From a virus, in IMG/VR virus record IMGVR_UViG_3300025132_000101, positions 1 to 39,240 of that record: a stretch of DNA of 39,240 nt. One strand, given 5' to 3'. The translations under genes were made by a program, and so were the position numbers. The notes beneath the pieces were generated by a model that did not search any database, was not told the origin of the DNA, and saw nothing but the letters and a program-made list of their open reading frames with translations. Shown here piece after piece: positions 1-35,991 of this stretch. Within the stretch, counting starts at the first letter, position 1. Each line of letters starts with the position of its first letter.

Positions 1-339
1 TAAGGATCGTCAATGCCAATGCTTGTCTCCTTTAGGAGTGCCCAAGCAAGGTCGAGACGCCCTGCATCGGCAGCCCAAGCAAGAGCATCTTGCTTCTGAC
101 CTTCGAACTTGTCTTCTGCCACGTTCTCGTGGAAGTCAACAAAGCGACGAAGGATGATCATGGCTGCAACTTTGTGAACCAGCGGGTCGCTGAGTTCTTC
201 ATACATTGCAGTGAGGTGCTTGTTTGCAACCTGCCAAAGCTGACTATGCAGATCAGCAGGTTCAATTTCAGGCACTTCAGGAGTTAGAAGAGCTTTCAGT
301 TCTTCTGGTGATACTGAATCAGGGATGAAGGATTGCATA
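1..339 (-). CDS. Hypothetical protein, 3' end outside window
   Basis: An open frame starts at the ATG at 339 and is still open at base 1, giving 113 residues. The protein begins MQSFIPDSVSPEELKALL and contains a Trp/Ala-rich helical stretch (DALAWAADAGRLDLAWALL). There is no signal peptide or membrane segment and I do not recognise the family. The start lies 24 bases after a UAAC hairpin that closes the preceding gene, the same arrangement as its minus-strand neighbours, which supports this start. The sequence between hairpin and start includes GTAAATATA, a string also found after two other hairpins in this arm. Confidence 0.75.
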
Positions 340-363
340 ACTTTCTTATATTTACTAAAAAAA

Positions 364-383
364 CCACTGGAGTTATCCAGTGG
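364..383 (-). terminator. UAAC-loop hairpin H1, terminator-like
   Basis: Perfect 8-bp stem with TAAC loop on the minus strand, followed by seven T residues. It lies about 10 bases beyond the stop codon of the upstream gene. Looks like an intrinsic terminator. Confidence 0.8.
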
Positions 384-393
384 AAGGCTGTTA

Positions 394-606
394 TCAGACG
401 TACTCACATGTGAGGTACGACTGACCTGCGTCAGATATGAAGTCGCCTACGGCTTCCATATCGACAGCAGCTACACCGTTTTTCATGACGGCAAGATGGC
501 ACTCATCAGTCATGAAGTTCAAAGCGTCTTCATGGTTTGGTTGAATGAGTGCAACGCCACGCACGAAGGTATCTTCGGTGATGGTGTAATCGAATGAATT
601 GTTCAA
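394..606 (-). CDS. Small hypothetical acidic protein
   Basis: About 70 residues ending in DAGQSYLTCEYV, rich in Asp/Glu. The frame is open further upstream to 750, but hairpin H2 (640-657) and two better genes occupy that stretch. I therefore place the start at TTG 606, which has an AGG nine bases ahead of it; another in-frame TTG lies at 636. No ATG exists in frame between the hairpin and residue FMTDE, so the start is uncertain. Family not recognised. It lies in the short-gene minus-strand block and is followed by hairpin H1. Confidence 0.55.
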   Translation of the reverse strand: MNNSFDYTITEDTFVRGVALIQPNHEDALNFMTDECHLAVMKNGVAAVDMEAVGDFISDAGQSYLTCEYV

Positions 607-639
607 GGTATTACCTATATGTTTTACATATAACAAAGC

Positions 640-657
640 CACAGGGGTTACCCTGTG
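640..657 (-). terminator. UAAC-loop hairpin H2 with stop codon in loop
   Basis: Perfect 7-bp stem (CACAGGG/CCCTGTG) with minus-strand loop TAAC. The TAA at 650-648 is the stop codon of the 24-residue gene just upstream. Only a weak T-rich tail follows. Confidence 0.75.
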
Positions 658-722
658 ACTGGCTGTTTGATTACTCTTACGAGTCTTCCCGTAACGGGGT
701 CTTTCTTGTAGGTGTAATTCAT
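648..722 (-). CDS. 24-residue micro-protein
   Basis: A 25-codon frame beginning MNYTYKKDPVTG and ending KQPVTG, basic and hydrophilic. The ATG (722-720) overlaps the TGA of the preceding gene (721-719) as ATGA, which suggests translational coupling. The TAA stop sits exactly in the loop of hairpin H2. Three other genes in this arm share the Thr-Gly-stop ending within such a hairpin, which makes a chance frame less likely. Function unknown. Very short frames are weak evidence by themselves, so confidence rests on the coupling and the shared ending. Confidence 0.55.
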   Translation of the reverse strand: MNYTYKKDPVTGRLVRVIKQPVTG

Positions 723-889
723 ACAGGTGTGATGCCGCAAGTGAGTTCATCGGTGGGCATTACTGACCACAGATCTTCAGGAGCTTGATTCTCCTGAAGA
801 AACTCTTCGGCATCGCTGATGTCACTCCAAAAGCCGACGATATCGTCGTTTAAGATGTCGTAGACGGCCCAGAACATGTTATTTTTCAT
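719..889 (-). CDS. Small hypothetical acidic protein
   Basis: 56 residues starting MKNNMFWAVYDIL and containing an acidic helix (DISDAEEFLQEN). I chose ATG 889 rather than the TTG at 907, because 907 lies in the arm of hairpin H3. The protein pattern (aromatic N-terminal strand, then an acidic helix) resembles many short phage accessory proteins, but no family is recognised. Its TGA overlaps the ATG of the next micro-gene as ATGA, so the two are probably co-translated. Confidence 0.7.
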   Translation of the reverse strand: MKNNMFWAVYDILNDDIVGFWSDISDAEEFLQENQAPEDLWSVMPTDELTCGITPV

Positions 890-906
890 AAGTACTAAAA
901 AACTCA

Positions 907-922
907 ACTGGGGTTACCCAGT
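907..922 (-). terminator. UAAC-loop hairpin H3 with stop codon in loop
   Basis: 6-bp stem ACTGGG/CCCAGT, extended by CTC/GAG across a bulged A. The minus-strand loop is TAAC and contains the TAA stop (916-914) of the 39-residue basic gene. Six T residues follow. Confidence 0.75.
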
Positions 923-1033
923 GAGTTTGGTCTTTAATGCCTTTAAGGCTGTTTTTCTTGCACGCAAAGCTTGAGGCTTAAGCTTACGCTTAGCTTCTTT
1001 GCGGCTGTGTTTTTGCCAATTAGGAACAATCAT
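914..1033 (-). CDS. 39-residue basic protein
   Basis: Translates to 39 residues beginning MIVPNWQKHSRKEAKRKLK and ending KTKLTG. Arg/Lys-rich, so probably nucleic-acid binding or ribosome-associated (inference from charge only). The ATG overlaps the TGA of the upstream gene as ATGA, and the stop TAA lies in the loop of hairpin H3. It is too short for most gene callers. Its overlap with a similarly basic 40-residue gene suggests the two form a coupled pair. Confidence 0.6.
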   Translation of the reverse strand: MIVPNWQKHSRKEAKRKLKPQALRARKTALKALKTKLTG

Positions 1034-1152
1034 TTACCTTGCCCTCGCAACATCTTTTTGTTGTGCTTGGGCTTAGAGTGAGTTCCTTGGCCCTGGCGAG
1101 TTTTCTTAGGGGAACTCTTGACGAAGGTGTGACCAGAAAGTGAACGAGCCAT
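1030..1152 (-). CDS. 40-residue basic protein, cyanophage-like
   Basis: 40 residues, starting MARSLSGHTFVKSSPKKTR and ending in a Lys/Gly/Gln-rich tail (MLRGQGK). Strongly basic and without acidic residues. The KKTRQG...SKPKH...RGQGK pattern resembles short conserved proteins I recall from marine cyanophages; this is a memory-level match and was not searched. The gene is followed by ATGA-coupled translation of the 39-residue basic protein. The start is the only ATG available and lies about 30 bases after hairpin H4, the usual spacing in this arm. Confidence 0.65.
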   Translation of the reverse strand: MARSLSGHTFVKSSPKKTRQGQGTHSKPKHNKKMLRGQGK

Positions 1153-1182
1153 GTGCTTATTTATGAAGTTACATTGAAAAAA

Positions 1183-1202
1183 CCACTGGTGTTAACCGGT
1201 GG
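1183..1202 (-). terminator. UAAC-loop hairpin H4
   Basis: 8-bp stem with one C-A mismatch on the minus strand (G-U if read from the plus strand), TAAC loop, then six T residues. It lies 8 bases beyond the stop of the gene ending at 1211. Confidence 0.7.
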
Positions 1203-1210
1203 CTTGGTTG

Positions 1211-1405
1211 TTAAAAGGTACCGAAGTTGTCTTCAAGCTCTACCAGAAGTCCATCGAAGTCTTCGGATGGAGGAAGGATTGAGGTAAGAGCTTCGACAAG
1301 ATCTGCACCGTATTCTTCTGCTAAATCCGCAAGGTATTCCTTACGGTTAGCAAAACCGTGTTGTTGATAGTCTGCATCGTTAAATGCAAAAATGTCTTCA
1401 GACAT
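1211..1405 (-). CDS. Small hypothetical acidic protein
   Basis: 64 residues beginning MSEDIFAFNDADYQQHGF and ending DNFGTF, very acidic, predicted helical in the middle (EYLADLAEEYGADLVEALTS). No recognised domain; negative charge could mean DNA mimicry or protein binding, but nothing specific supports it. The gene lies between hairpins H5 (upstream) and H4 (downstream). A minus-strand ATACAAT at about 1478-1472 could be the -10 of its promoter. Confidence 0.75.
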   Translation of the reverse strand: MSEDIFAFNDADYQQHGFANRKEYLADLAEEYGADLVEALTSILPPSEDFDGLLVELEDNFGTF

Positions 1406-1435
1406 GGTTGTAAGATATTGAACATCCAGAAAAGA

Positions 1436-1451
1436 ACAGGTGTTAACCTGT
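1436..1451 (-). terminator. UAAC-loop hairpin H5
   Basis: 6-bp stem ACAGGT/ACCTGT with TAAC loop on the minus strand and a TCTTTTC tail. It follows the same AACAGCCAAG-like leader found after other stops, although no minus-strand gene now ends here. Confidence 0.65.
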
Positions 1452-1495
1452 GCTTGGCTGTTGGTATTATATAAGTATTGTATTGCTCAGTTGTG

Positions 1496-1876
1496 ATGGG
1501 TGGAAGTGGACGATTGCGCAAAGCAATGGAAGCCATAGCCATGGCTGACAATGCAGTGCAGAAGGCAATTCGTGAGAAGATCTTGTATCTACAAGATGAT
1601 GTTGTGCCCAAGAAAGAGACAGTGAAGTCTTTACTTGGTCAAACTGTCTTTAGACCAAACCGTTTGGCACCCGATAGTTATTACAAGTCTCAGACACCAG
1701 GGGTGGCTGAAGACATTGCAACTATCTTGGCTGCCCGTGCTCTGCAAGCTGGAGTAGTAGCCGGAGGTGTCGGCACAGGCTTGGCTGCTGCAGACGGTAC
1801 CCAGCGTGCATTAGAGCAACTAGGTTTGGTAGAAAGAAAAGAAGACCGAGGCGTTAGCCCCGGTCTGATGATTTGA
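1496..1876 (+). CDS. Hypothetical protein on opposite strand to its neighbours
   Basis: 126 residues from ATG 1496 (an in-frame TTG at 1478 would add six). The N-terminus is helical (LRKAMEAIAMADNAVQKAIREK); the C-terminal part holds a Gly/Ala-rich hydrophobic stretch (ALQAGVVAGGVGTGLAAADG) and the tail RALEQLGLVERKEDRG. Gly/Ala-rich stretches of this type recur in the virion proteins further right. It is the only plus-strand gene in the left arm and sits between two minus-strand terminator hairpins. The last codons coincide with hairpin H6, and its TGA abuts the TGA of the convergent gene with no spacer. Confidence 0.7.
   Translation: MGGSGRLRKAMEAIAMADNAVQKAIREKILYLQDDVVPKKETVKSLLGQTVFRPNRLAPDSYYKSQTPGVAEDIATILAARALQAGVVAGGVGTGLAAADGTQRALEQLGLVERKEDRGVSPGLMI
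1843..1866 (-). terminator. UAAC-loop hairpin H6 inside a plus-strand coding end
   Basis: 10-bp stem with TAAC loop. On the minus strand it is fully paired, with one G-U; on the plus strand the same position is an A-C mismatch. The minus-strand tail is TCTTTTCTTTC. It is also the coding sequence for the last residues of the plus-strand gene. Confidence 0.7.
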
Positions 1877-2098
1877 TCAAGCCTCAACAGCTTTAGCTGC
1901 TGATTTCTCATCAGCGACGGCGTTGATTTTACTGACAGCTTGCTTGGCAGAGTAGAAACTACCGCCAACAGCAAGACTGTCTACACCGCCGTTTTTATAC
2001 TCGACACCACATTCGACAATGTCGTATTGGTTGTCTTGTGAAACGACCTTCTCGAAGAGACGGACGTGAACGTCGGTGCCTGGAAAGCGAAAGCGCAT
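1877..2098 (-). CDS. Small hypothetical protein
   Basis: 73 residues from ATG 2098, beginning MRFRFPGTDVHVRLFEKV and ending in an Ala/Glu/Lys helix. The start at 2119 would place the N-terminus close to hairpin H7, so 2098 is preferred. The pattern is a beta-strand-rich N-terminus followed by a helix (SAKQAVSKINAVADEKSA). Family not recognised. Its stop codon directly abuts that of the convergent plus-strand gene (TGA|TCA), with H6 just beyond. Confidence 0.7.
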   Translation of the reverse strand: MRFRFPGTDVHVRLFEKVVSQDNQYDIVECGVEYKNGGVDSLAVGGSFYSAKQAVSKINAVADEKSAAKAVEA

Positions 2099-2128
2099 AA
2101 GTGTAAATGCAATGAACACACAGCAACC

Positions 2129-2146
2129 AACAGGCGTTAGCCTGTT
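2129..2146 (-). terminator. UAAC-loop hairpin H7 with stop codon in loop
   Basis: Perfect 7-bp stem AACAGGC/GCCTGTT with TAAC loop. The TAA (2139-2137) is the stop codon of the 75-residue gene. The T tail is poor, so termination here is less certain than at H1 or H8. Confidence 0.7.
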
Positions 2147-2364
2147 GATCTCAAGTGTTTGGTTAGTTCAAGATATTCCTGATCAATGAGTTCAGACAAG
2201 GGGTCAATACTCAGATCAGTGTATGGTTTTAGTTCGTCTAGTTGGAAGGAGTGGAGAAAGTCAATAACTTCAGGGAAGGTATTAAAGGCTGACCACGTAC
2301 CCTCGAACTTGACGTGGAAGCGTGTATTAGGTGCACGCTTCTGTTGGATCACGAGTTTCAACAT
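2137..2364 (-). CDS. Small hypothetical protein ending in hairpin loop
   Basis: 75 residues, MLKLVIQQKRAPNTRFHVKF at the N-terminus and KHLRSTG at the end. A basic beta-rich start is followed by an acidic helical half (YTDLSIDPLSELIDQEYLELT). The start ATG overlaps the TGA of the upstream gene as TGATG, indicating coupling. The UAA stop lies in the loop of hairpin H7 and the protein ends Thr-Gly, as in three other genes of this arm. Function unknown. Confidence 0.75.
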   Translation of the reverse strand: MLKLVIQQKRAPNTRFHVKFEGTWSAFNTFPEVIDFLHSFQLDELKPYTDLSIDPLSELIDQEYLELTKHLRSTG

Positions 2365-2522
2365 CAGCTAAAACGTGATGTGAGTGACTCAATGAACTCT
2401 TCATCTTGTTCTTGAAGCCAAGCCTCGTTATCGAAAGCGACACGCGCTGCTTGTTCTTCAAGCCACGAGATCATCTCAACATCGTTGGAGATCTCTTCGG
2501 GAATGAAATGCAAGTTGTTCAT
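2364..2522 (-). CDS. 52-residue acidic protein
   Basis: 52 residues beginning MNNLHFIPEEISNDVEMIS, with two Trp-containing acidic segments (SWLEEQAARVAFD and AWLQEQDEEFIE). It looks like a small helical acidic protein. No family recognised. The start lies 28 bases after hairpin H8, and the TGA overlaps the next ATG (TGATG), so it is probably expressed with the 75-residue protein. The high negative charge next to a basic partner could mean they interact, but this is only a guess. Confidence 0.65.
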   Translation of the reverse strand: MNNLHFIPEEISNDVEMISWLEEQAARVAFDNEAWLQEQDEEFIESLTSRFS

Positions 2523-2549
2523 GAAATTATCAATAATCAGTTAACAAAA

Positions 2550-2567
2550 AACAGGCGTTAGCCTGTT
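2550..2567 (-). terminator. UAAC-loop hairpin H8, terminator-like
   Basis: Perfect 7-bp stem AACAGGC/GCCTGTT with TAAC loop, followed by six T residues. It lies 12 bases after the stop of the gene ending at 2579. Confidence 0.8.
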
Positions 2568-2578
2568 CTTGGTTGTTA

Positions 2579-2752
2579 TTAATCGTTCGTAGTTTCGAGA
2601 TTTGAGGCTATAGCTTCACGAACACGAATGATTTTTGGATCGTGAGCCTTGACTTTGTCAATGGCTACACACACGTCAGTTGCTTCAACATAGTTGACAA
2701 CTGATTCACCCGTTTTGTAAACGGATTCGAGGCGATAAATGATATTTTTCAT
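2579..2752 (-). CDS. Small hypothetical protein
   Basis: 57 residues from ATG 2752, beginning MKNIIYRLESVYKTGESVV. The pattern of an N-terminal strand pair followed by a helix (VCVAIDKVKAHDPKIIRVREAI) resembles small phage proteins of unknown function that take the form of one strand-strand-helix unit. The longer frame to 2794 would overlap the upstream lipoprotein-like gene, so it is rejected. The ATG starts two bases after the upstream TAA, consistent with coupling. Confidence 0.7.
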   Translation of the reverse strand: MKNIIYRLESVYKTGESVVNYVEATDVCVAIDKVKAHDPKIIRVREAIASNLETTND

Positions 2753-2754
2753 GA

Positions 2755-3159
2755 TTAACGAAAGCAGAAGGAAGCAGCATCGTGGTAATAACAACGCATG
2801 TTGCTATGTTCATCTTCAATTAAGGTGACAGGAAGGATACTCATATCTGACCTTATATTGAAGGCTTCAACTTTGTCAGTCTGAGCAATGACAAAAAAGC
2901 TGATAGACTCAGCATTTGTCCCTATTTCTTGGAAAGTGGCAGTGAAAGTAGCATTACCTTGTTCAACAATGGTCATGGTGCATGGTATCCAATCACTGTT
3001 ACCTCTAGGTGTGTAGATCGCACACTCTTTTGTAAATGTGGCCGCACCCTGTAATTGAATAGGATTAACAGGTGTATCTGGCATGGCACAAGCAAGTAAG
3101 CCTGCACATATGTTGGTTAATGTTTGAATGAACATAGTGAGTACAAATGATATAACCAT
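2755..3159 (-). CDS. Predicted phage lipoprotein
   Basis: 134 residues. The N-terminus is a hydrophobic segment of about 20 residues ending in Leu-Leu-Ala-Cys (residues 21-24), a good lipobox, so export and lipidation at Cys24 are likely. The mature part (about 110 residues) is beta-rich and has four further cysteines (KECAIY, IPCTMT, MRCYY, SFCFR), compatible with two disulfides outside the cytoplasm. Phage lipoproteins often act at the cell surface, for example in superinfection exclusion; that role is inferred from localisation alone. An alternative start at Met9 keeps the signal. The ATG at 3159 lies 3 bases after hairpin H9, whose 3' arm supplies GGGAG. Confidence 0.65.
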   Translation of the reverse strand: MVISFVLTMFIQTLTNICAGLLACAMPDTPVNPIQLQGAATFTKECAIYTPRGNSDWIPCTMTIVEQGNATFTATFQEIGTNAESISFFVIAQTDKVEAFNIRSDMSILPVTLIEDEHSNMRCYYHDAASFCFR

Positions 3160-3162
3160 GAA

Positions 3163-3182
3163 CTCCCGGAGTTATCCGGGAG
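3163..3182 (-). terminator. UAAC-loop hairpin H9, adjoining a start codon
   Basis: Perfect 8-bp stem CTCCCGGA/TCCGGGAG with TAAC loop. No T tract follows; instead the start codon at 3159 comes 3 bases later and the GGGAG of the 3' arm is Shine-Dalgarno-like. It may therefore control translation rather than end transcription. Confidence 0.65.
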
Positions 3183-3188
3183 AGGGGG

Positions 3189-3380
3189 TTAGATAATGTC
3201 GTCAGACATAGTCTTGAGCGATTCGAAACGTTGGAGTGAATCACGGTGGTACGTGATCCAACGATCAATCGCTATTTGAAATGCTTCAATAAGCATTTGA
3301 TGCTCTTGGCAATCTTCATCACTGCATTCACTGATGATATCGGAGAATTGAGTGATGTAATAATCTTTATTATGTAGCAT
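3189..3380 (-). CDS. Small hypothetical acidic protein
   Basis: 63 residues from ATG 3380, beginning MLHNKDYYITQFSDIISE. Contains an acidic Cys pair (ECSDEDCQEH) and a helical second half ending KTMSDDII. The start at 3380 overlaps the TGA of the upstream gene as TGATG; the 3398 start lies inside that gene and is rejected. The protein is followed six bases later by hairpin H9. No family recognised; the close Cys-Cys pair with His could bind metal, but this is weak. Confidence 0.7.
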   Translation of the reverse strand: MLHNKDYYITQFSDIISECSDEDCQEHQMLIEAFQIAIDRWITYHRDSLQRFESLKTMSDDII

Positions 3381-3613
3381 CAGACCAGTGGATTGCAAAG
3401 GTCAGAGTCCGCAGTGATGCGGTACTCATAGAAGTTTCCCCATTCTTCCTGATAGTGAGTCACACGCTTTAGACAAGTGTCGTGACCACTAGCCGGGTAG
3501 GTCATGTGGAACCAGTAGCGATCGTCACCCTGACGGGCGCGACACCAGATCCGACATTGACCTGCAATGAATGGGTAAAGTTCACGAAGCTCTTCGCGTT
3601 CTTGAACAGTCAT
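3380..3613 (-). CDS. Small hypothetical protein
   Basis: 77 residues starting MTVQEREELRELYPFIAGQ. Aromatic- and Cys-containing core (CRIWCRARQGDDRYWFHMTYP, where the two Cys are three apart) and a C-terminal strand (FYEYRITADSD). Looks like a compact alpha/beta protein, family unknown. The start lies about 35 bases after hairpin H10 and the stop is coupled (TGATG) to the following 63-residue gene. Confidence 0.75.
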   Translation of the reverse strand: MTVQEREELRELYPFIAGQCRIWCRARQGDDRYWFHMTYPASGHDTCLKRVTHYQEEWGNFYEYRITADSDLCNPLV

Positions 3614-3647
3614 TGGGAATAGAGTATATATTTACAATGAAAAACAC

Positions 3648-3665
3648 AACAGGCGTTAGCCTGTT
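3648..3665 (-). terminator. UAAC-loop hairpin H10, terminator-like
   Basis: Perfect 7-bp stem AACAGGC/GCCTGTT with TAAC loop and a GTGTTTTTC tail. The following spacer has GTAAATATATA, similar to the spacers after H1 and H11. Confidence 0.75.
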
Positions 3666-3676
3666 ATGTAGTTATC

Positions 3677-3865
3677 TTAAATGCCATTTAAGAAATCGTG
3701 GAGAGCATCTTGATACTCTCTCTTTGTCTTAAAGGTTACTCCATGAATAGTGAGTGGGAACTCACGTTTCTTAGGAGTTGAGTTGCGCATTGATGCGCTT
3801 ACGTCCCAACGAGTGCAACCTTGTTGGTCGCAGATCTGTTGGACGTAGGGGTTGTTATCTATCAT
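3677..3865 (-). CDS. Small hypothetical protein
   Basis: 62 residues beginning MIDNNPYVQQICDQQGCTRW. The first half has a CDQQGC motif; the second half (FKTKREYQDALHDFLNG) looks like a helix. The segment TIHGVTFKTKREYQDAL resembles short repeats often seen in small phage proteins, with an aromatic strand followed by a helix, but I cannot name a family. The ATG is TGATG-coupled to the upstream 58-residue gene; hairpin H10 follows the stop. Confidence 0.75.
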   Translation of the reverse strand: MIDNNPYVQQICDQQGCTRWDVSASMRNSTPKKREFPLTIHGVTFKTKREYQDALHDFLNGI

Positions 3866-4041
3866 CAGGCAACTCCTGTGCTTGTGATAATACGGAAGCG
3901 GATTCCTGCACCGGAGGCACGAGTCTGCTTGATGTAGTCGAACTGACGCTGACGAACAATGTCACGATCAGTTGAGGAAACGCCCATGGGTTTCCACTGA
4001 GCTTCACGCTCATTCCAGTATTGACAAGTGTAGGTTGTCAT
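3865..4041 (-). CDS. 58-residue basic protein
   Basis: 58 residues starting MTTYTCQYWNEREAQWKPM and ending FRIITSTGVA. Basic (several Arg in IVRQRQFDYIKQTRASG) with a CQYW motif near the start. It is coupled to the next gene by a TGATG overlap. Start ATG 4041 lies 31 bases after hairpin H11. Function unknown; the Arg-rich helix could bind nucleic acid. Confidence 0.7.
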   Translation of the reverse strand: MTTYTCQYWNEREAQWKPMGVSSTDRDIVRQRQFDYIKQTRASGAGIRFRIITSTGVA

Positions 4042-4071
4042 GGTTAAGTAAATTATATTTACTAAAAGAAA

Positions 4072-4091
4072 CCACCGGTGTTAACCGGTGG
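4072..4091 (-). terminator. UAAC-loop hairpin H11, terminator-like
   Basis: Perfect 8-bp stem CCACCGGT/ACCGGTGG with TAAC loop and a TTTCTTTTAG tail, 7 bases after the TAA of the upstream gene. Confidence 0.8.
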
Positions 4092-4098
4092 ATGGCTG

Positions 4099-4248
4099 TT
4101 AAAAAGGTAGCTCCTCTTCAACTTCATACAAGTCATACTTGTCTGAGTCTTCGAAGCTTTTGATGTGTGCCCAAGCTGCTTCTTCAGAGAAGAACATCTT
4201 GGTTTGTTGCTGCCGCTCTACGTGAAAGACGTGGTAGGTGGTGAGCAT
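4099..4248 (-). CDS. 49-residue acidic protein
   Basis: 49 residues beginning MLTTYHVFHVERQQQTKMF and ending YEVEEELPF. An N-terminal strand pair is followed by a helix (SEEAAWAHIKSFED) and an acidic tail. The aromatic strand-Phe-Phe-Ser-helix layout is similar to other small proteins of this arm, so distant paralogy is possible. Flanked by H12 upstream and H11 downstream. Function not recognised. Confidence 0.7.
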   Translation of the reverse strand: MLTTYHVFHVERQQQTKMFFSEEAAWAHIKSFEDSDKYDLYEVEEELPF

Positions 4249-4276
4249 TTAGAACATATATTGTTACTCAAACGAA

Positions 4277-4296
4277 ACACCGGTGTTAACCGGTGT
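4277..4296 (-). terminator. UAAC-loop hairpin H12 with stop codon in loop
   Basis: Perfect 8-bp stem ACACCGGT/ACCGGTGT with TAAC loop. The TAA at 4288-4286 is the stop of the 58-residue membrane protein. The tail is TTTCGTTTGAG. Confidence 0.75.
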
Positions 4297-4462
4297 ATGG
4301 CTGTTGCTTTGAAAGCCACTCAAGATAGGAACCAGGCTTGGTCATATCCATCTGTGCTTTGACCTTGGCAAGGCGTGCTTGTGCATGCTTCAGTTCTTGA
4401 TACTCACGAACGAAGCGACCAGCACAGACGCCGAAGGCAATAGCCATTACTAATGAAAGCAT
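4286..4462 (-). CDS. Small single-span membrane protein
   Basis: 58 residues. Residues 1-14 form a hydrophobic segment (MLSLVMAIAFGVCAG) followed by Arg and a charged helix (EYQELKHAQARLAKVKAQMD), so probably a small inner-membrane protein with a cytoplasmic coiled tail. It ends KQQPYTG with the UAA stop in the loop of hairpin H12. The start ATG is 32 bases after hairpin H13. It is the first gene of the minus-strand arm next to the repeat-rich divergent region. The role is unknown; it could also be a very short lysis-related protein. Confidence 0.7.
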   Translation of the reverse strand: MLSLVMAIAFGVCAGRFVREYQELKHAQARLAKVKAQMDMTKPGSYLEWLSKQQPYTG

Positions 4463-4493
4463 GTTTAGAGTAAATAGATTTACTCATTAAAGA

Positions 4494-4509
4494 GCAGGCG
4501 TTAGCCTGC
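4494..4509 (-). terminator. UAAC-loop hairpin H13
   Basis: Perfect 6-bp stem GCAGGC/GCCTGC with TAAC loop on the minus strand and a short TCTTTAATG tail. It precedes the first gene of the left arm; no gene lies upstream, so it may act as a leader hairpin or stop transcription from the repeat region. Confidence 0.65.
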
Positions 4510-4644
4510 GTGTAGCTATGTGGGTAAAAACGGGCGGCCACGCGTAGCGTGATTAGGTATTTAAGCCCCCTGCTTATTTATATATACCTACCCCCTTTTA
4601 ATCTCTACCGAGATCCCACACAATACCCACACCTTCCCACAATC

Positions 4645-4800
4645 ACGGCAGACTTACTGAGGACTACAGAGATCCACGGCGGACTACTGAACATCACGGC
4701 GGATCTACAGAGATCCACAGTAGATGTACGTAGAACAACGGCAGATCTACGGCAAGGGGGGTAGACCCTCTGAAGATCTACGGCAGGGGCACGGCAGATC
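4645..4800. repeat. Phased ACGGC(A/G)GA boxes
   Basis: ACGGC occurs at 4645, 4676, 4696, 4738, 4749, 4780 and 4791, with a degenerate ACAGT copy at 4717. Steps are 31, 20, 21, 21, 11, 31 and 11 bases, all near multiples of a 10.5-bp helical turn. A perfect inverted repeat (GGATCT ACAG AGATCC) lies at 4700-4715. It looks like an array of protein-binding sites on one DNA face. Confidence 0.6.
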
Positions 4801-5058
4801 CTCAGATAGATAGGCACGAGGAGAGGTGAAGGTATATAGTTAAAAGAATGTGAAGATAACTTAGGAGAGTAAGAGCAATACAATAGCTCCGCTCGACTGT
4901 TAGCTGAACATCAGCGGTGAGAACAAAGATGTACGACGAAACATAGACGCAGTAAATGTTAAGCAGTCGTAACACATAAAAGACATTGCACAACAGTTAT
5001 CACGAGTAACCTAAAGGTTGTGAGACTTTAGTAACTCATAAGTTGTGACAGATGTGAG

Positions 5059-5151
5059 CCCGATGTACGAACACAAGTATCAATAGCATCTGTTAACAAC
5101 GAAGGTTAAACCTTAAGTAATAACAGAAGAAGTAACTTGTGTAACATCGGG
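5059..5151. repeat. Nested imperfect palindrome
   Basis: Outer arms CCCGATGT (5059-5066) with ACATCGGG (5144-5151) and ACACAAGT (5071-5078) with ACTTGTGT (5135-5142); middle arms CTGTTA (5090-5095) with TAACAG (5121-5126); inner AAGG (5102-5105) with CCTT (5111-5114). It could form a cruciform or a long RNA stem. Confidence 0.55.
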
Positions 5152-5201
5152 TGAACGCCCTTGATTCACGTCAGTTAACTTACGCTAGATAACTTTGGTT
5201 A

Positions 5202-5319
5202 TCACTTCAGTTAACACAGGTAACTTACGTTATCACTTCAGGTAACTCAGGTAACGTGAGTTGTCACTTCAGTTAACGGAGGTAACTTACGCGATACCTT
5301 CAGTAACCTACGGTGATAG
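5202..5319. repeat. Tandem 31-bp iterons
   Basis: Units start at 5202, 5233, 5264 and 5295, exactly 31 bases apart, each opening with TCACTTCAG (TACCTTCAG in the fourth, truncated unit). They share AGTTAAC and AGGTAACTTACG blocks. A more degenerate copy seems to precede them from 5171. 31 bp is three helical turns. Confidence 0.7.
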
Positions 5320-5570
5320 TCAAGGGCTAGTTTATTTTTTTTGTTCCACCGGCAGTCGGGGAACTAAGGGTATTAGAAGTGTCAAAAATTTTGTAGCACT
5401 TTTCACCCTCTATAGGCCGTTTTTCTCTGGGGTACACCAATAGCGAGTGTATATTAAGTAACAGTACATATTTAGGCTGCCCCAAGATGTCCGAAACGTA
5501 AGCCGTTTCTAATGTTGAACAAAAGAAATGGGAGTCAAACTTCAAAGCATCCGTGCTTAGAGATCTAAAG

Positions 5571-5698
5571 CTACGTTGCTACACAAACTACGTGGGGTTT
5601 CTATAAACCCTATTTGTAATTCTCCCTATGTACCCTCTACTAGTATTTTTTAAATTGGGTATATACTGTACAGCGTAGTTAGCGTAGTTTTGTAGTTT
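5571..5698. repeat. GTAG-triplet inverted-repeat element, copy A
   Basis: CTAC at 5571, 5579 and 5588 faces GTAG at 5675, 5684 and 5692; spacings are 8 and 9 on one side and 9 and 8 on the other, separated by 83 bases. The spacer has a hairpin (GGGTTT CTAT AAACCC, 5595-5610) and the palindrome CTGTACAG. It ends 34 bases before the first plus-strand gene. A second copy lies at 33546-33673. Confidence 0.65.
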
Positions 5699-5731
5699 GT
5701 AAGATATAAAGAGCAACTGCATTCGAAGAAA

Positions 5732-7436: not shown

Positions 7437-9515
7437 GTGTTTAACAATCCTCTTGAAGGTAAGCAACTGTTGCATAATCGCATCATTAGTGATTCAGCAA
7501 GCGTATCGCCTAGTAATAACCCTCAACAAATAGCTAGAGACGTTCAAAAGAAGCGTACTGAGGAATTATTGGGCGGCGCAGCAGCGTTAGCTGCTGGTGA
7601 AACGCTTGGATTGAATACAGAAGAAACACTCAAGCTAATTTCAAGGGAAACACGTCGTCAAAAGCGTGCTGACCACACTGTTACCGAAGAAGATGTGTTG
7701 CGTCAGTTCGCGCAGACACAGAAATCACTTGCAGAAGCTGGCCCTGCTGAACTTGCTGGCATCGCTCTGCGTGAACAGCCTGAAGTTGACCCATTCGGTC
7801 AGGCTCAAGATGATATTCAGACTTATAGCCGTGATGAAGCGGTGATGTACGGACTGATCCCCGAAGATCAGATGTACAACGATGAATTGATCCGTAGAGG
7901 TGACGCAATGGAGCGTCCATCCTCCGGACAAGCTGGTGTAGCCGATGCACTGCGTAGATTGGAAGCCGCCAAAAGCACGGCGCCCGGCGCAGCCGCTGTA
8001 GCTGGCTCACTAGAGCAAAGCTTGGGTGGAAGAATCCAGAGAGACGCTGATGCGTCAATGGCAAGAGACTTGGTGATGCGTGAAGCCGGTCTGCGTAACC
8101 CAACACGTGCTGGTTACAACGATGTCAAGGCAGCTATCGAAGCTGAAGATATTGCACGTCGTGATTTCACTATTGGTGGCAAAGGTGCCATTGCAGACGA
8201 GGTAATGCGCCGGATTGGTGGTGCAAACCAAGAAGTCAGAGAGATGGCGATGCTTGATCCTCGGACTGGTACTTATATGGGTTCAGACGGTAATCCGTTG
8301 GCAATCCAAGGCCCCGAAAGAGCCATGGCTGGTGTCAACGCCTCTGATACCGCAAACATGCTGAACGCACCTCAGAAAGAAAGTGCAATCAACTATGTCG
8401 TCAAGCAACTCCCTGACTTCAAGGAAGGTGGACGTGTATTCGGCGATTTCAACCAGACTGACATGACTGGAGCGTCAACATTGTTCGCTCAGCGTGTTGC
8501 ACAGAGTGGATTGGTTGATCCCCGGATGGTTCCTGGAGATCTGCGCACCGTTGAGGAATTCCAAGGTGCAATCAACATGTTGGCTGGAGCTGCTAAGGAG
8601 CAAGGCGTCAAAATGTACGGTTTGGAGCAACAGCAAACTCCAGACGGCCGCACCTTGATGCAAAAGTCCCTGGTCCCTGCAGATCGGGTTGGTGCAAGCG
8701 AGGTTATGAACTATCTCCGCTACACACCGGCTGAAGCTGGTCAATTCGCCAACATGCTGTATCAGTCTGAGGTTGCCAGAGGAACGCAGATCAACCAGAA
8801 CGCTAAGAACCAGTACTTCGGTCGCGGAGCTGTTGCACCTGGACCTAAAGACAACATTGTGTTCAGTGCAGCTGAAGCCATCAACCCCCGTGATGGTGAA
8901 GCACAAGTTGCACGTATCCGTGGTGGCCAAACCATCGGAACCGGCAAAGAGAAGACTGACATTAAAGCTGCCTTCCGTCAGCTAAGTGAGCCTGGTGCTC
9001 GCCAGCCATTCATCGGTCAGGTTGAAGGCCAAGCTCCTCGGATTAACCGCTACGTCGGTAAGGCTGCAGCTGGGCTTGATTCTTCAGATATTCCCGCAGC
9101 ACTTCGTGAGCAAGAAATGGGCTTCGCCCGTAACAAGGCTCGTCGTGCAATGAGTAAAGAAGGGGCGCTGATTAGCCCAATGCGGGTTGATCGTCGTGCA
9201 GAAGGAATGATTGATGAAGCTGCACTGAAGGACAAAACCGTTAAGGCTCAGTTGGTACGTGAGCGTGCAGTTCGTGACAACAAAGCTCGTAATGAGCGTG
9301 AGTTCAATATCCGCACTCGTCAAGGTATGCCCCCGGCAGAACCGGGTCGTATGGGTGGAGCACCTCAAGCCCAGTCCGCACCTACCGGACCTACACAAAG
9401 TGGTGACTCTTATCAGAGTAAAATAGCAGAAGAGCGGTATAACCGCAACATTGCTAAAGAGCAAGAAGAAGCTAACAGCTTCGCTTCAAGAATCCGTCGT
9501 CTGAGAGGTATGTGA
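7437..9515 (+). CDS. Large hypothetical structural protein
   Basis: 692 residues, hydrophilic, mostly helical and rich in Ala, Arg and Gln, with several segments of the type EEDVLRQFAQTQKSLAEA and RDNKARNEREFNIRTRQG. No enzyme motif or membrane segment is visible. The start is GTG 7437; the ATG at 7426 opens a three-codon frame (ATG GCA AGA TAG) that ends just before it, so the tiny frame could couple to or moderate translation. The C-terminus (SFASRIRRLRGM) resembles the end of the long Gln-rich protein (KYARSLAGMF). The next gene starts by TGATG overlap. A virion or internal-core protein is the most likely role, inferred from context. Confidence 0.8.
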   Translation: MFNNPLEGKQLLHNRIISDSASVSPSNNPQQIARDVQKKRTEELLGGAAALAAGETLGLNTEETLKLISRETRRQKRADHTVTEEDVLRQFAQTQKSLAEAGPAELAGIALREQPEVDPFGQAQDDIQTYSRDEAVMYGLIPEDQMYNDELIRRGDAMERPSSGQAGVADALRRLEAAKSTAPGAAAVAGSLEQSLGGRIQRDADASMARDLVMREAGLRNPTRAGYNDVKAAIEAEDIARRDFTIGGKGAIADEVMRRIGGANQEVREMAMLDPRTGTYMGSDGNPLAIQGPERAMAGVNASDTANMLNAPQKESAINYVVKQLPDFKEGGRVFGDFNQTDMTGASTLFAQRVAQSGLVDPRMVPGDLRTVEEFQGAINMLAGAAKEQGVKMYGLEQQQTPDGRTLMQKSLVPADRVGASEVMNYLRYTPAEAGQFANMLYQSEVARGTQINQNAKNQYFGRGAVAPGPKDNIVFSAAEAINPRDGEAQVARIRGGQTIGTGKEKTDIKAAFRQLSEPGARQPFIGQVEGQAPRINRYVGKAAAGLDSSDIPAALREQEMGFARNKARRAMSKEGALISPMRVDRRAEGMIDEAALKDKTVKAQLVRERAVRDNKARNEREFNIRTRQGMPPAEPGRMGGAPQAQSAPTGPTQSGDSYQSKIAEERYNRNIAKEQEEANSFASRIRRLRGM

Positions 9516-25943: not shown

Positions 25944-26882
25944 ATGCCTCAGCAAAAAATAACTAGTGATCCTGTGAGAGCTTATCTTAAGGACATTGGC
26001 CGAATACCTCTCCTTGCGCATGACGAAGAGATTCTTCTTGGTCGAAAAGTTCAGCGTATGATTGAACTCAACGAAATGAAAAAAGAGCTTGACCTAGATA
26101 ATGCACAACTTGCCGAATCACTTGATGTGCCTGTTCGTCAAGTACTGCGTGAACTTCGTGATGGTAGACGTGCAAAGGACAAGATGGTTACTGCTAATCT
26201 TCGCCTAGTTGTCAGCGTTGCAAAAAAATACACCAAAAGAAATATGGAGCTATTAGATATCATTCAAGAAGGAACTATTGGACTTATCCGTGGCGTTGAA
26301 AAGTTTGATCCTGGTCGTGGCTACAAGTTTTCTACCTACGCCTACTGGTGGATTCGCCAGGGGATCACTCGTGCTATCGCGGAGAAGAGTAGAGCCATAC
26401 GCTTACCGATCCATGTTACTGAAAACCTCAACAAACTTAAGAAAGCCCAGCGTGAATTAAGTCAGCTTAACGGACATCTGCCTACTGTTGAAGAGCTTGC
26501 CGAAGAACTGAACATCACTCAGGATGATGTAAAAGATCTTATGTGCAAAGCACGTCAGCCAACCTCACTTGAAATTAAGATTGGTGAAAACCATGACACT
26601 GCTCTGGTCGACATGCTGGAAGACGCAGATCAAACACCTGAGGTTAACTTAGAAGCAGCTTGTATCAAGGAAGATATTCGTAATGAGATCAGTATGCTGC
26701 CCCGTCTACAAGCTGAAGTAATTAGCATGCGCTATGGGATTGGTGATGACACACTTGAGCCGCTTTCTATGACAGCCATTGGCCAGGTACTAAACATGAG
26801 CCGCGATCGTGTCCGCACTTTAGAGCATAAAGCACTCCGCACTCTTCGGGAGAATGGAAGTCAGGTTGCAGAATATCTGTAA
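25944..26882 (+). CDS. Sigma-70 family factor, group 2 type
   Basis: 312 residues. Region 1.2 (DPVRAYLKDIGRIPLL, residues 9-24), then a non-conserved helical insert with an HTH-like segment (AQLAESLDVPVRQVLRE), region 2 (about 80-155: NLRLVVSVAKKYTKRN, DIIQEGTIGLIRGVEKFD, YKFSTYAYWWIRQGITRA), region 3 (about 160-235) and region 4 (about 245-305: AEVISMRYGIGDD and the -35 helix SRDRVRTLEHKALRTL). No region 1.1, as in group 2 factors. The sequence style is that of cyanobacterial group 2 sigma factors, so it was probably captured from a host. It should redirect host RNA polymerase. Its place among capsid genes suggests a late-gene role, which is inference. Confidence 0.93.
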   Translation: MPQQKITSDPVRAYLKDIGRIPLLAHDEEILLGRKVQRMIELNEMKKELDLDNAQLAESLDVPVRQVLRELRDGRRAKDKMVTANLRLVVSVAKKYTKRNMELLDIIQEGTIGLIRGVEKFDPGRGYKFSTYAYWWIRQGITRAIAEKSRAIRLPIHVTENLNKLKKAQRELSQLNGHLPTVEELAEELNITQDDVKDLMCKARQPTSLEIKIGENHDTALVDMLEDADQTPEVNLEAACIKEDIRNEISMLPRLQAEVISMRYGIGDDTLEPLSMTAIGQVLNMSRDRVRTLEHKALRTLRENGSQVAEYL

Positions 26883-35454: not shown

Positions 35455-35991
35455 ATGACTACTTCTAGTAAGCCTAGTTACTCGCCATTAGATGCAAACT
35501 TTGAATCACTTATTGCTGCTATCAATTTACGCCGAATAAATAATTATCAGATGCCTAAAACCTATCCGTCTAATTTTGCTGGACTAGTCGCTGCACTCCT
35601 AGAGCTTAACTGGGGACAGGCAAGTACAGGCCCGCAGCCCCCTACTTGGAATCAATCAACGAGTAATTACGACCCTATCCCTGAAGAAGGAGCATTGTGG
35701 TTTGACACACGTCAAGGACGATTGTTTTGCTACGCCCACGATGGATGGTATCAGACAAATGGTGCGGATGGTTATGTTGTTGTTCGGGAAAGTACTGCAC
35801 CAACGGATCCTGTATTAGGGCAGATGTGGATGGAGTCTCAAACTAAAGAAGTAACTGTGTATGATGGTTCACAGTTTGTGCCTATACAATCATCAGCTTA
35901 CGTTGCGAAAGCTAACATTGAAAGTATTTTAAATGCATCGTCAGATTATGCTGCGTTTAAAACAAATTTGCTAGCCTTTGTAAGTGCATAG
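35455..35991 (+). CDS. Fibre/adhesin accessory protein
   Basis: 178 residues starting MTTSSKPSYSPLDANFESL. Two copies of a Gly-x-Leu/Met-Trp strand motif (EEGALWFDTRQGRLFCYAH and LGQMWMESQTKEVTVYDGS) of the kind found in phage virion and fibre proteins; ends in a helix (AFKTNLLAFVSA). Its position just before the fibre genes supports a tail or attachment role. A GTACAAT and a TACAAT lie upstream within 30 bases. Confidence 0.7.
   Translation: MTTSSKPSYSPLDANFESLIAAINLRRINNYQMPKTYPSNFAGLVAALLELNWGQASTGPQPPTWNQSTSNYDPIPEEGALWFDTRQGRLFCYAHDGWYQTNGADGYVVVRESTAPTDPVLGQMWMESQTKEVTVYDGSQFVPIQSSAYVAKANIESILNASSDYAAFKTNLLAFVSA

Follow-up and report, generated by a model that had tools for sequence, protein, structure and literature searches.

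The window analysed here, a 39 kb IMG/VR virus record taken at its full length of 39,240 nucleotides, carries on its minus strand at positions 364–4509 an array of small early-strand gene cassettes with hairpins between them, and raises the question of what a series of hairpins with one loop and variable stems does at the borders of such genes. Judged from sequence and placement, the hairpins that lie past most small early genes of this ocean virus most likely serve to end each transcript. By protein comparison, the window is a genome fragment from a relative of Synechococcus phage S-EIV1, as its terminase and large virion protein are 55% and 49% identical to their S-EIV1 counterparts, and the S-EIV1 layout, with small genes leftward and structural genes rightward, matches that of the window. 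This kinship suggests that the host is probably a photosynthetic bacterium. As blastn with the first 8 kb of the window as query gave no match among phage records, relatives were sought via protein. The virion protein is encoded on 124 virus-contig stretches, the nearest relative being G001 (88–90% identity in this protein), and eight relatives (G001, G002, G004, G006 and G008–G011) were read nearly whole. The right arm of the window also encodes a phage RNA polymerase sigma factor (phrog_351, 25944–26882, plus strand).

The minus-strand hairpin array

All 13 hairpins of the original prediction are present on the minus strand at the positions given, with the loop TAAC, and the closing pair varies as had been claimed (minus-strand count: C-G 5, T-A 4, A-T 2, G-C 2). 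Where a gene stop lies nearby on the same strand, the stem mostly starts 6–8 nt later, or the TAA of the loop is itself the stop codon. The latter applies in the window to site 907 (907–922, ACTGGG-TAAC-CCCAGT; gene 914–1033), site 2129 (2125–2150, GATCAACAGGC-TAAC-GCCTGTTGGTT; gene 2137–2364), which has the weakest tail with three T in eight, and site 4277 (4277–4296, ACACCGGT-TAAC-ACCGGTGT; gene 4286–4462). Site 364 (364–383, CCACTGGA-TAAC-TCCAGTGG) begins 10 nt past the stop of gene 394–750 and has a TTTTTTT tail, and site 3648 (3644–3669, ACATAACAGGC-TAAC-GCCTGTTGTGT) continues into TTTT. Site 640 (637–660, AGTCACAGGG-TAAC-CCCTGTGGCT) has a closing G-C pair that is T-A in the G001 ortholog, and site 4072 (4072–4091, CCACCGGT-TAAC-ACCGGTGG, then TTTCTTTT) has the stem CCCCGGC in that genome; site 2550 (2547–2570) reads AAGAACAGGC-TAAC-GCCTGTTTTT, and site 3163 (3163–3182, CTCCCGGA-TAAC-TCCGGGAG) is without a G001 ortholog. 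Site 1843 (1843–1866, AGACCGGGGC-TAAC-GCCTCGGTCT) is convergent, lying past the minus-strand gene 1877–2119 and within the 3′ end of the plus-strand ORF 1478–1876. Stems are uninterrupted at 12 of the 13 sites, the exception being site 1183 (1183–1202, CCACCGGT-TAAC-ACCAGTGG, tail TTTTTT), where one A·C mismatch on the minus strand is a G·U when read on the plus strand. Two sites do not follow a gene end: site 1436 (1436–1451, ACAGGT-TAAC-ACCTGT) lies between the heads of the divergent genes 1211–1405 (minus) and 1478–1876 (plus), and site 4494 (4494–4509, GCAGGC-TAAC-GCCTGC) forms the head of the array upstream of its first gene, 4286–4462, with no minus-strand gene recognised before it.

The density of these hairpins is far from random. 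In the comparison with shuffled sequence that had been proposed, 11 minus-strand TAAC hairpins with a stem of at least 6 bp and at least four G-C pairs compare with 0.02 on average over 100 dinucleotide shuffles, in which the maximum was one; no shuffle gave more than two hairpins for any tetraloop sequence, and the plus strand of the window has no TAAC hairpin at these thresholds. The observation that none occurs right of 4510 holds except for a perfect TAAC hairpin at 7579–7596 (minus). It is probably a chance occurrence, because it lies antisense within a late gene, no T tract follows it and the covariance model described below misses it. A scan of the window against Rfam at the gathering score returned no match.

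Stem compensation and loop identity across the lineage

In the alignment of the hairpins 100% of cells are paired, two-sided change is seen at 6/6 pairs and the covariation score is 1.02 as opposed to 0.19 when shuffled, all for stems that had been selected for pairing. A fairer test is offered by junctions matched through their flanking sequence, in which 150 stem pairs were compared, sites whose hairpin is gone in the partner genome being omitted; ten of 11 window array sites in this set have a G001 partner. Twenty of the 150 pairs differ, of which 18 are full compensatory changes, two are wobble (G-U) and none is broken, bearing out the claim of covariation around a fixed loop, and the loops at these orthologous junctions vary only among UAAC, UAUC and UACC. 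The covariance model that had been called for was built from 60 sites and recovers 13/13 sites in the window together with one weak plus-strand match; site 1183 scores 23.7 bits despite its mismatch. The model has 21 hits in G001 and 25 in G008, no match in S-EIV1, P-SSP7 or 50 kb each of S-PM2, S-TIM5 and T4, and 0–3 matches per host genome (1.6–2.9 Mb each), those inspected resembling ordinary terminators with a UAAC loop by coincidence. The model serves as a marker with which the borders of early genes can be annotated in this marine group, which has been little studied.

Hairpins are present on the early strand in all eight relatives read. The loop is UAAC in G001, G006 and G008 and predominantly so in G009; UAUC is found in G004, G010 and G011 alongside some UAAC and UACC, and UUUC is the loop of G002, while S-EIV1 has stray hairpin cases at most. 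Additional early-arm contigs also carry hairpins (G030 13, G031 7, G032 9), and late-gene-dominated stretches of 20–33 kb have almost none. In the virion-protein tree the UAUC genomes G004, G010 and G011 cluster and loops broadly track lineage, and exact-pattern scans of the virus collection confine multi-copy hairpins to the lineage of the window, with singletons elsewhere. The original description of a phage-specific family of gene-end RNA elements is upheld by strand specificity, position past stop codons, compensatory stems at orthologous sites, occurrence throughout a marine S-EIV1-related lineage, and absence both from S-EIV1 and from the other cyanophage sequence tested; its ‘invariant UAAC’ is accurate for the window phage and its nearest kin, whereas lineage-wide just U1 and C4 stay. 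To gauge the loop irrespective of its sequence, T-tailed hairpins directly past early-strand ORF stops were counted across the window plus its eight relatives: U-N-N-C accounts for 69 of 90 tetraloops and UNCG or GNRA for two, as compared with 2/23 U-N-N-C tetraloops in Prochlorococcus sequence; a small Synechococcus/Cyanobium sample gave no gene-end sites in this count. The loop is limited to U-N-N-C within the phage lineage, and this constraint is real.

Why U1 and C4 are kept although loops of the UUCG or GNRA type have the better predicted stability is the question that this constraint poses. In energy tables C(UAAC)G receives a stability bonus; thermodynamic stability was nevertheless rejected as the cause of loop choice, since GAAA and UUCG come out ahead in the predicted energies and since UAUC and UUUC have no bonus. 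A general role of the loop TAA in supplying stop codons was also rejected, as few genes end there and UAUC and UUUC loops contain no stop, and a DNA palindrome or protein site is at odds with the compensated stem variation and with a loop that renders the site non-palindromic. A phage or host protein might instead read the U-N-N-C loop, giving the cyanophages a switchable early-gene control in which loop and reader change together by lineage, whether the hairpins are terminators or units of a nut-like hairpin and a boxA-like element; we regard this proposal as improbable. A very basic, R/K-rich, arginine-rich-motif-like peptide of 39 aa (phrog_3309) is encoded at 914–1033 (minus) and has relatives in G004, G008 and G030; it was considered as the loop reader and rejected, being in just four of the genomes searched. 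The basic 40-aa protein encoded at 1030–1152 (minus; phrog_516) has a relative in the late region of S-EIV1.

Probable transcript ends and the competing readings

Of the three functions originally proposed for the hairpins (terminators, mRNA-end protectors or protein docking sites), the terminator fits best, while the evidence weighs neither for nor against protein docking: the UNNC-loop hairpins are likely to be intrinsic terminators, and hence protected 3′ ends, of the small early gene cassettes. RNA polymerase would pass the stop codon and continue into the hairpin sequence, a GC-rich stem of 6–11 bp capped by the tetraloop would fold in the transcript, and the RNA would be let go within the U-rich tract 3′ of the stem; the stem sequence would be free to drift provided that pairing persists, with the loop held at U-N-N-C. 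Transcription from the minus strand, hairpin folding and termination are steps that we infer, whereas the terminator hallmarks are present in the sequence itself as a GC-rich hairpin, a U tract and, with exceptions at the array head and at 1436, a gene-end location. The prediction that about two thirds of the sites have a T-rich tail proves to be an underestimate, as 12 of the 13 have at least four T in the first 8 nt past the stem, a cut-off also applied to cyanobacterial 3′ ends (PMC13289151). Weak tails are found at two of the 13 window sites; the poor tails at 2129 and 640 correspond to good U tracts in the G001 orthologs. Among 77 hairpins from nine genomes, picked outside ORFs and irrespective of tail, 73 (95%) reach this cut-off, and across these genomes the flanks are A-rich upstream and T-rich downstream of the stem, as fits terminators. 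Terminator-like sites number 20 in window positions 1–5700 as opposed to 4.4 (sd 2.2) in shuffles. The absence of Rho from cyanobacteria (PMC13289151) is counted as further support for intrinsic terminators.

Besides the two weak tails, two observations sit less easily with termination. A role at gene ends alone would leave unexplained the hairpin at 1436 and those at the array head (4494 and its counterparts), which are without a recognised gene before them in six of the seven genomes examined. In addition, the next ATG typically lies ∼30 nt past the stem and sigma-70 promoters show no excess past the hairpins (seven found, 9.5 expected), so that full termination everywhere would require non-standard promoters overlapping the terminators.

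The hairpin at the head, where the array opens ahead of its first gene, would be accommodated if each hairpin were a boxB-like element, with UAAC in a GNRA-like, protein-bound fold, followed by a boxA-like element in the order boxB-boxA and acting in read-through of later terminators, a reading that appears unlikely. The element in question is TGYYCTTTA, which we take to resemble Nus boxA. It occurs (at least 8/9 positions) past 32 of 106 stems in the relatives as opposed to 3.5 in shuffled tails, mostly 12–13 nt past the stem and with a spacing tied to the stem (sd 1.4) rather than to the ATG (sd 13), although the motif was derived partly from the same data. The genomes with this placement are G004, G010, G011, G002, G008 and G009. 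The window itself has the element at 7/9 in two sites only, and an AGTAAAT-like sequence replaces it at several sites. A test for its absence from convergent ends gave p = 0.31, in classes contaminated by mechanical ORFs. A boxA-like word, TGTTGTTTA, is present in the Prochlorococcus rrn leader but is not conserved in Synechococcus RCC307. The closest parallel for the loop is phi21 boxB, whose CUAACC hexaloop takes the UMAC fold and is bound by N peptide (PMC12550061). What is shared is the UAAC loop, a sequence of the UMAC type, for which a GNRA-like fold is known; phi21 boxB, however, has a C-C closing pair and its N peptide partner, whereas the window family closes with Watson-Crick pairs and is followed by a U tract. 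UAAC falls within the UNAC/UMAC tetraloops, whereas the UAUC, UACC and UUUC loops used by some relatives are outside the class or without the energy bonus, UAUC and UUUC lying outside UMAC. The U tract immediately past the stem is a terminator trait, more than ten copies are unlike known nut sites, and no conserved N-like protein was identified.

Stabilisation or processing of mRNA 3′ ends without termination, by REP-like elements or RNase-made ends, would account for the gene-end position and for the weakness of some tails. It is quite doubtful in view of the U tract at 95% of sites across genomes, the A-rich/U-rich flanks that match terminators, and the many stems of just 6 bp, a length that is short for RNase III. 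A role as recombination borders, or as a spreading repeat marking gene cassettes, with RNA function secondary, is very unlikely. In its favour, the segment 923–1422 of the window, between hairpins 1436 and 907, is absent from G001 (at 35952), and the junction coincides with a hairpin, as though one cassette had been gained or lost between hairpins; near-copy stems also recur within one genome (GCCGGC in G008, GCGCCC in G009). Against it, the strand specificity, the U tract and the compensatory changes all belong to the RNA level, and orthologous stems diverge while their pairing persists.

Known systems and the noncoding region beyond the array

As intrinsic terminators, the hairpins would share with bacterial Rho-independent terminators the GC-rich stem, tetraloop, U-rich tract and stop-codon adjacency, and would differ in a loop confined to UNNC, a bias not seen in Prochlorococcus. 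The nearest precedent is the intergenic CUUCGG hairpins of T4 and other phages (Tuerk 1988), which, as far as the account in PMC8948821 goes, are likewise numerous and combine one fixed loop with variable stems. The window family differs in belonging to an unrelated phage lineage, in its loop, with UAAC predicted to be less stable than UUCG and no UUCG among the 13 window sites, and in switching loops between sub-lineages. Searches of the open-access literature on UNAC tetraloops, phage tetraloop terminators and cyanophage terminator hairpins turned up no account of the UNNC-loop family. In Synechococcus elongatus canonical terminators are found at just ∼22% of transcription-unit ends (PMC13289151), and a lineage with terminator-like, constrained-loop hairpins past the majority of its early genes offers natural candidates for cyanobacterial terminators.

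On its upstream side the array head of the window adjoins a conserved noncoding region between the early and late arms (4510–5700), which has iteron-like repeats and conserved islands that are 85–98% identical to G001 and which may encode a noncoding RNA or be an origin or packaging region. It contains an upstream hairpin, CACGC-TAC-GCGTG, the G001 version of which is CAGGC-TAC-GCCTG. A 56-nt element at 5325–5380 (minus), GTTCCCCGACTGCCGGTGGAAC followed by eight A, has a 22-nt core that is exact in G001 only among virus contigs; the whole element is 98% identical in G001 and has diverged matches in G004, G008, G010 and G011.
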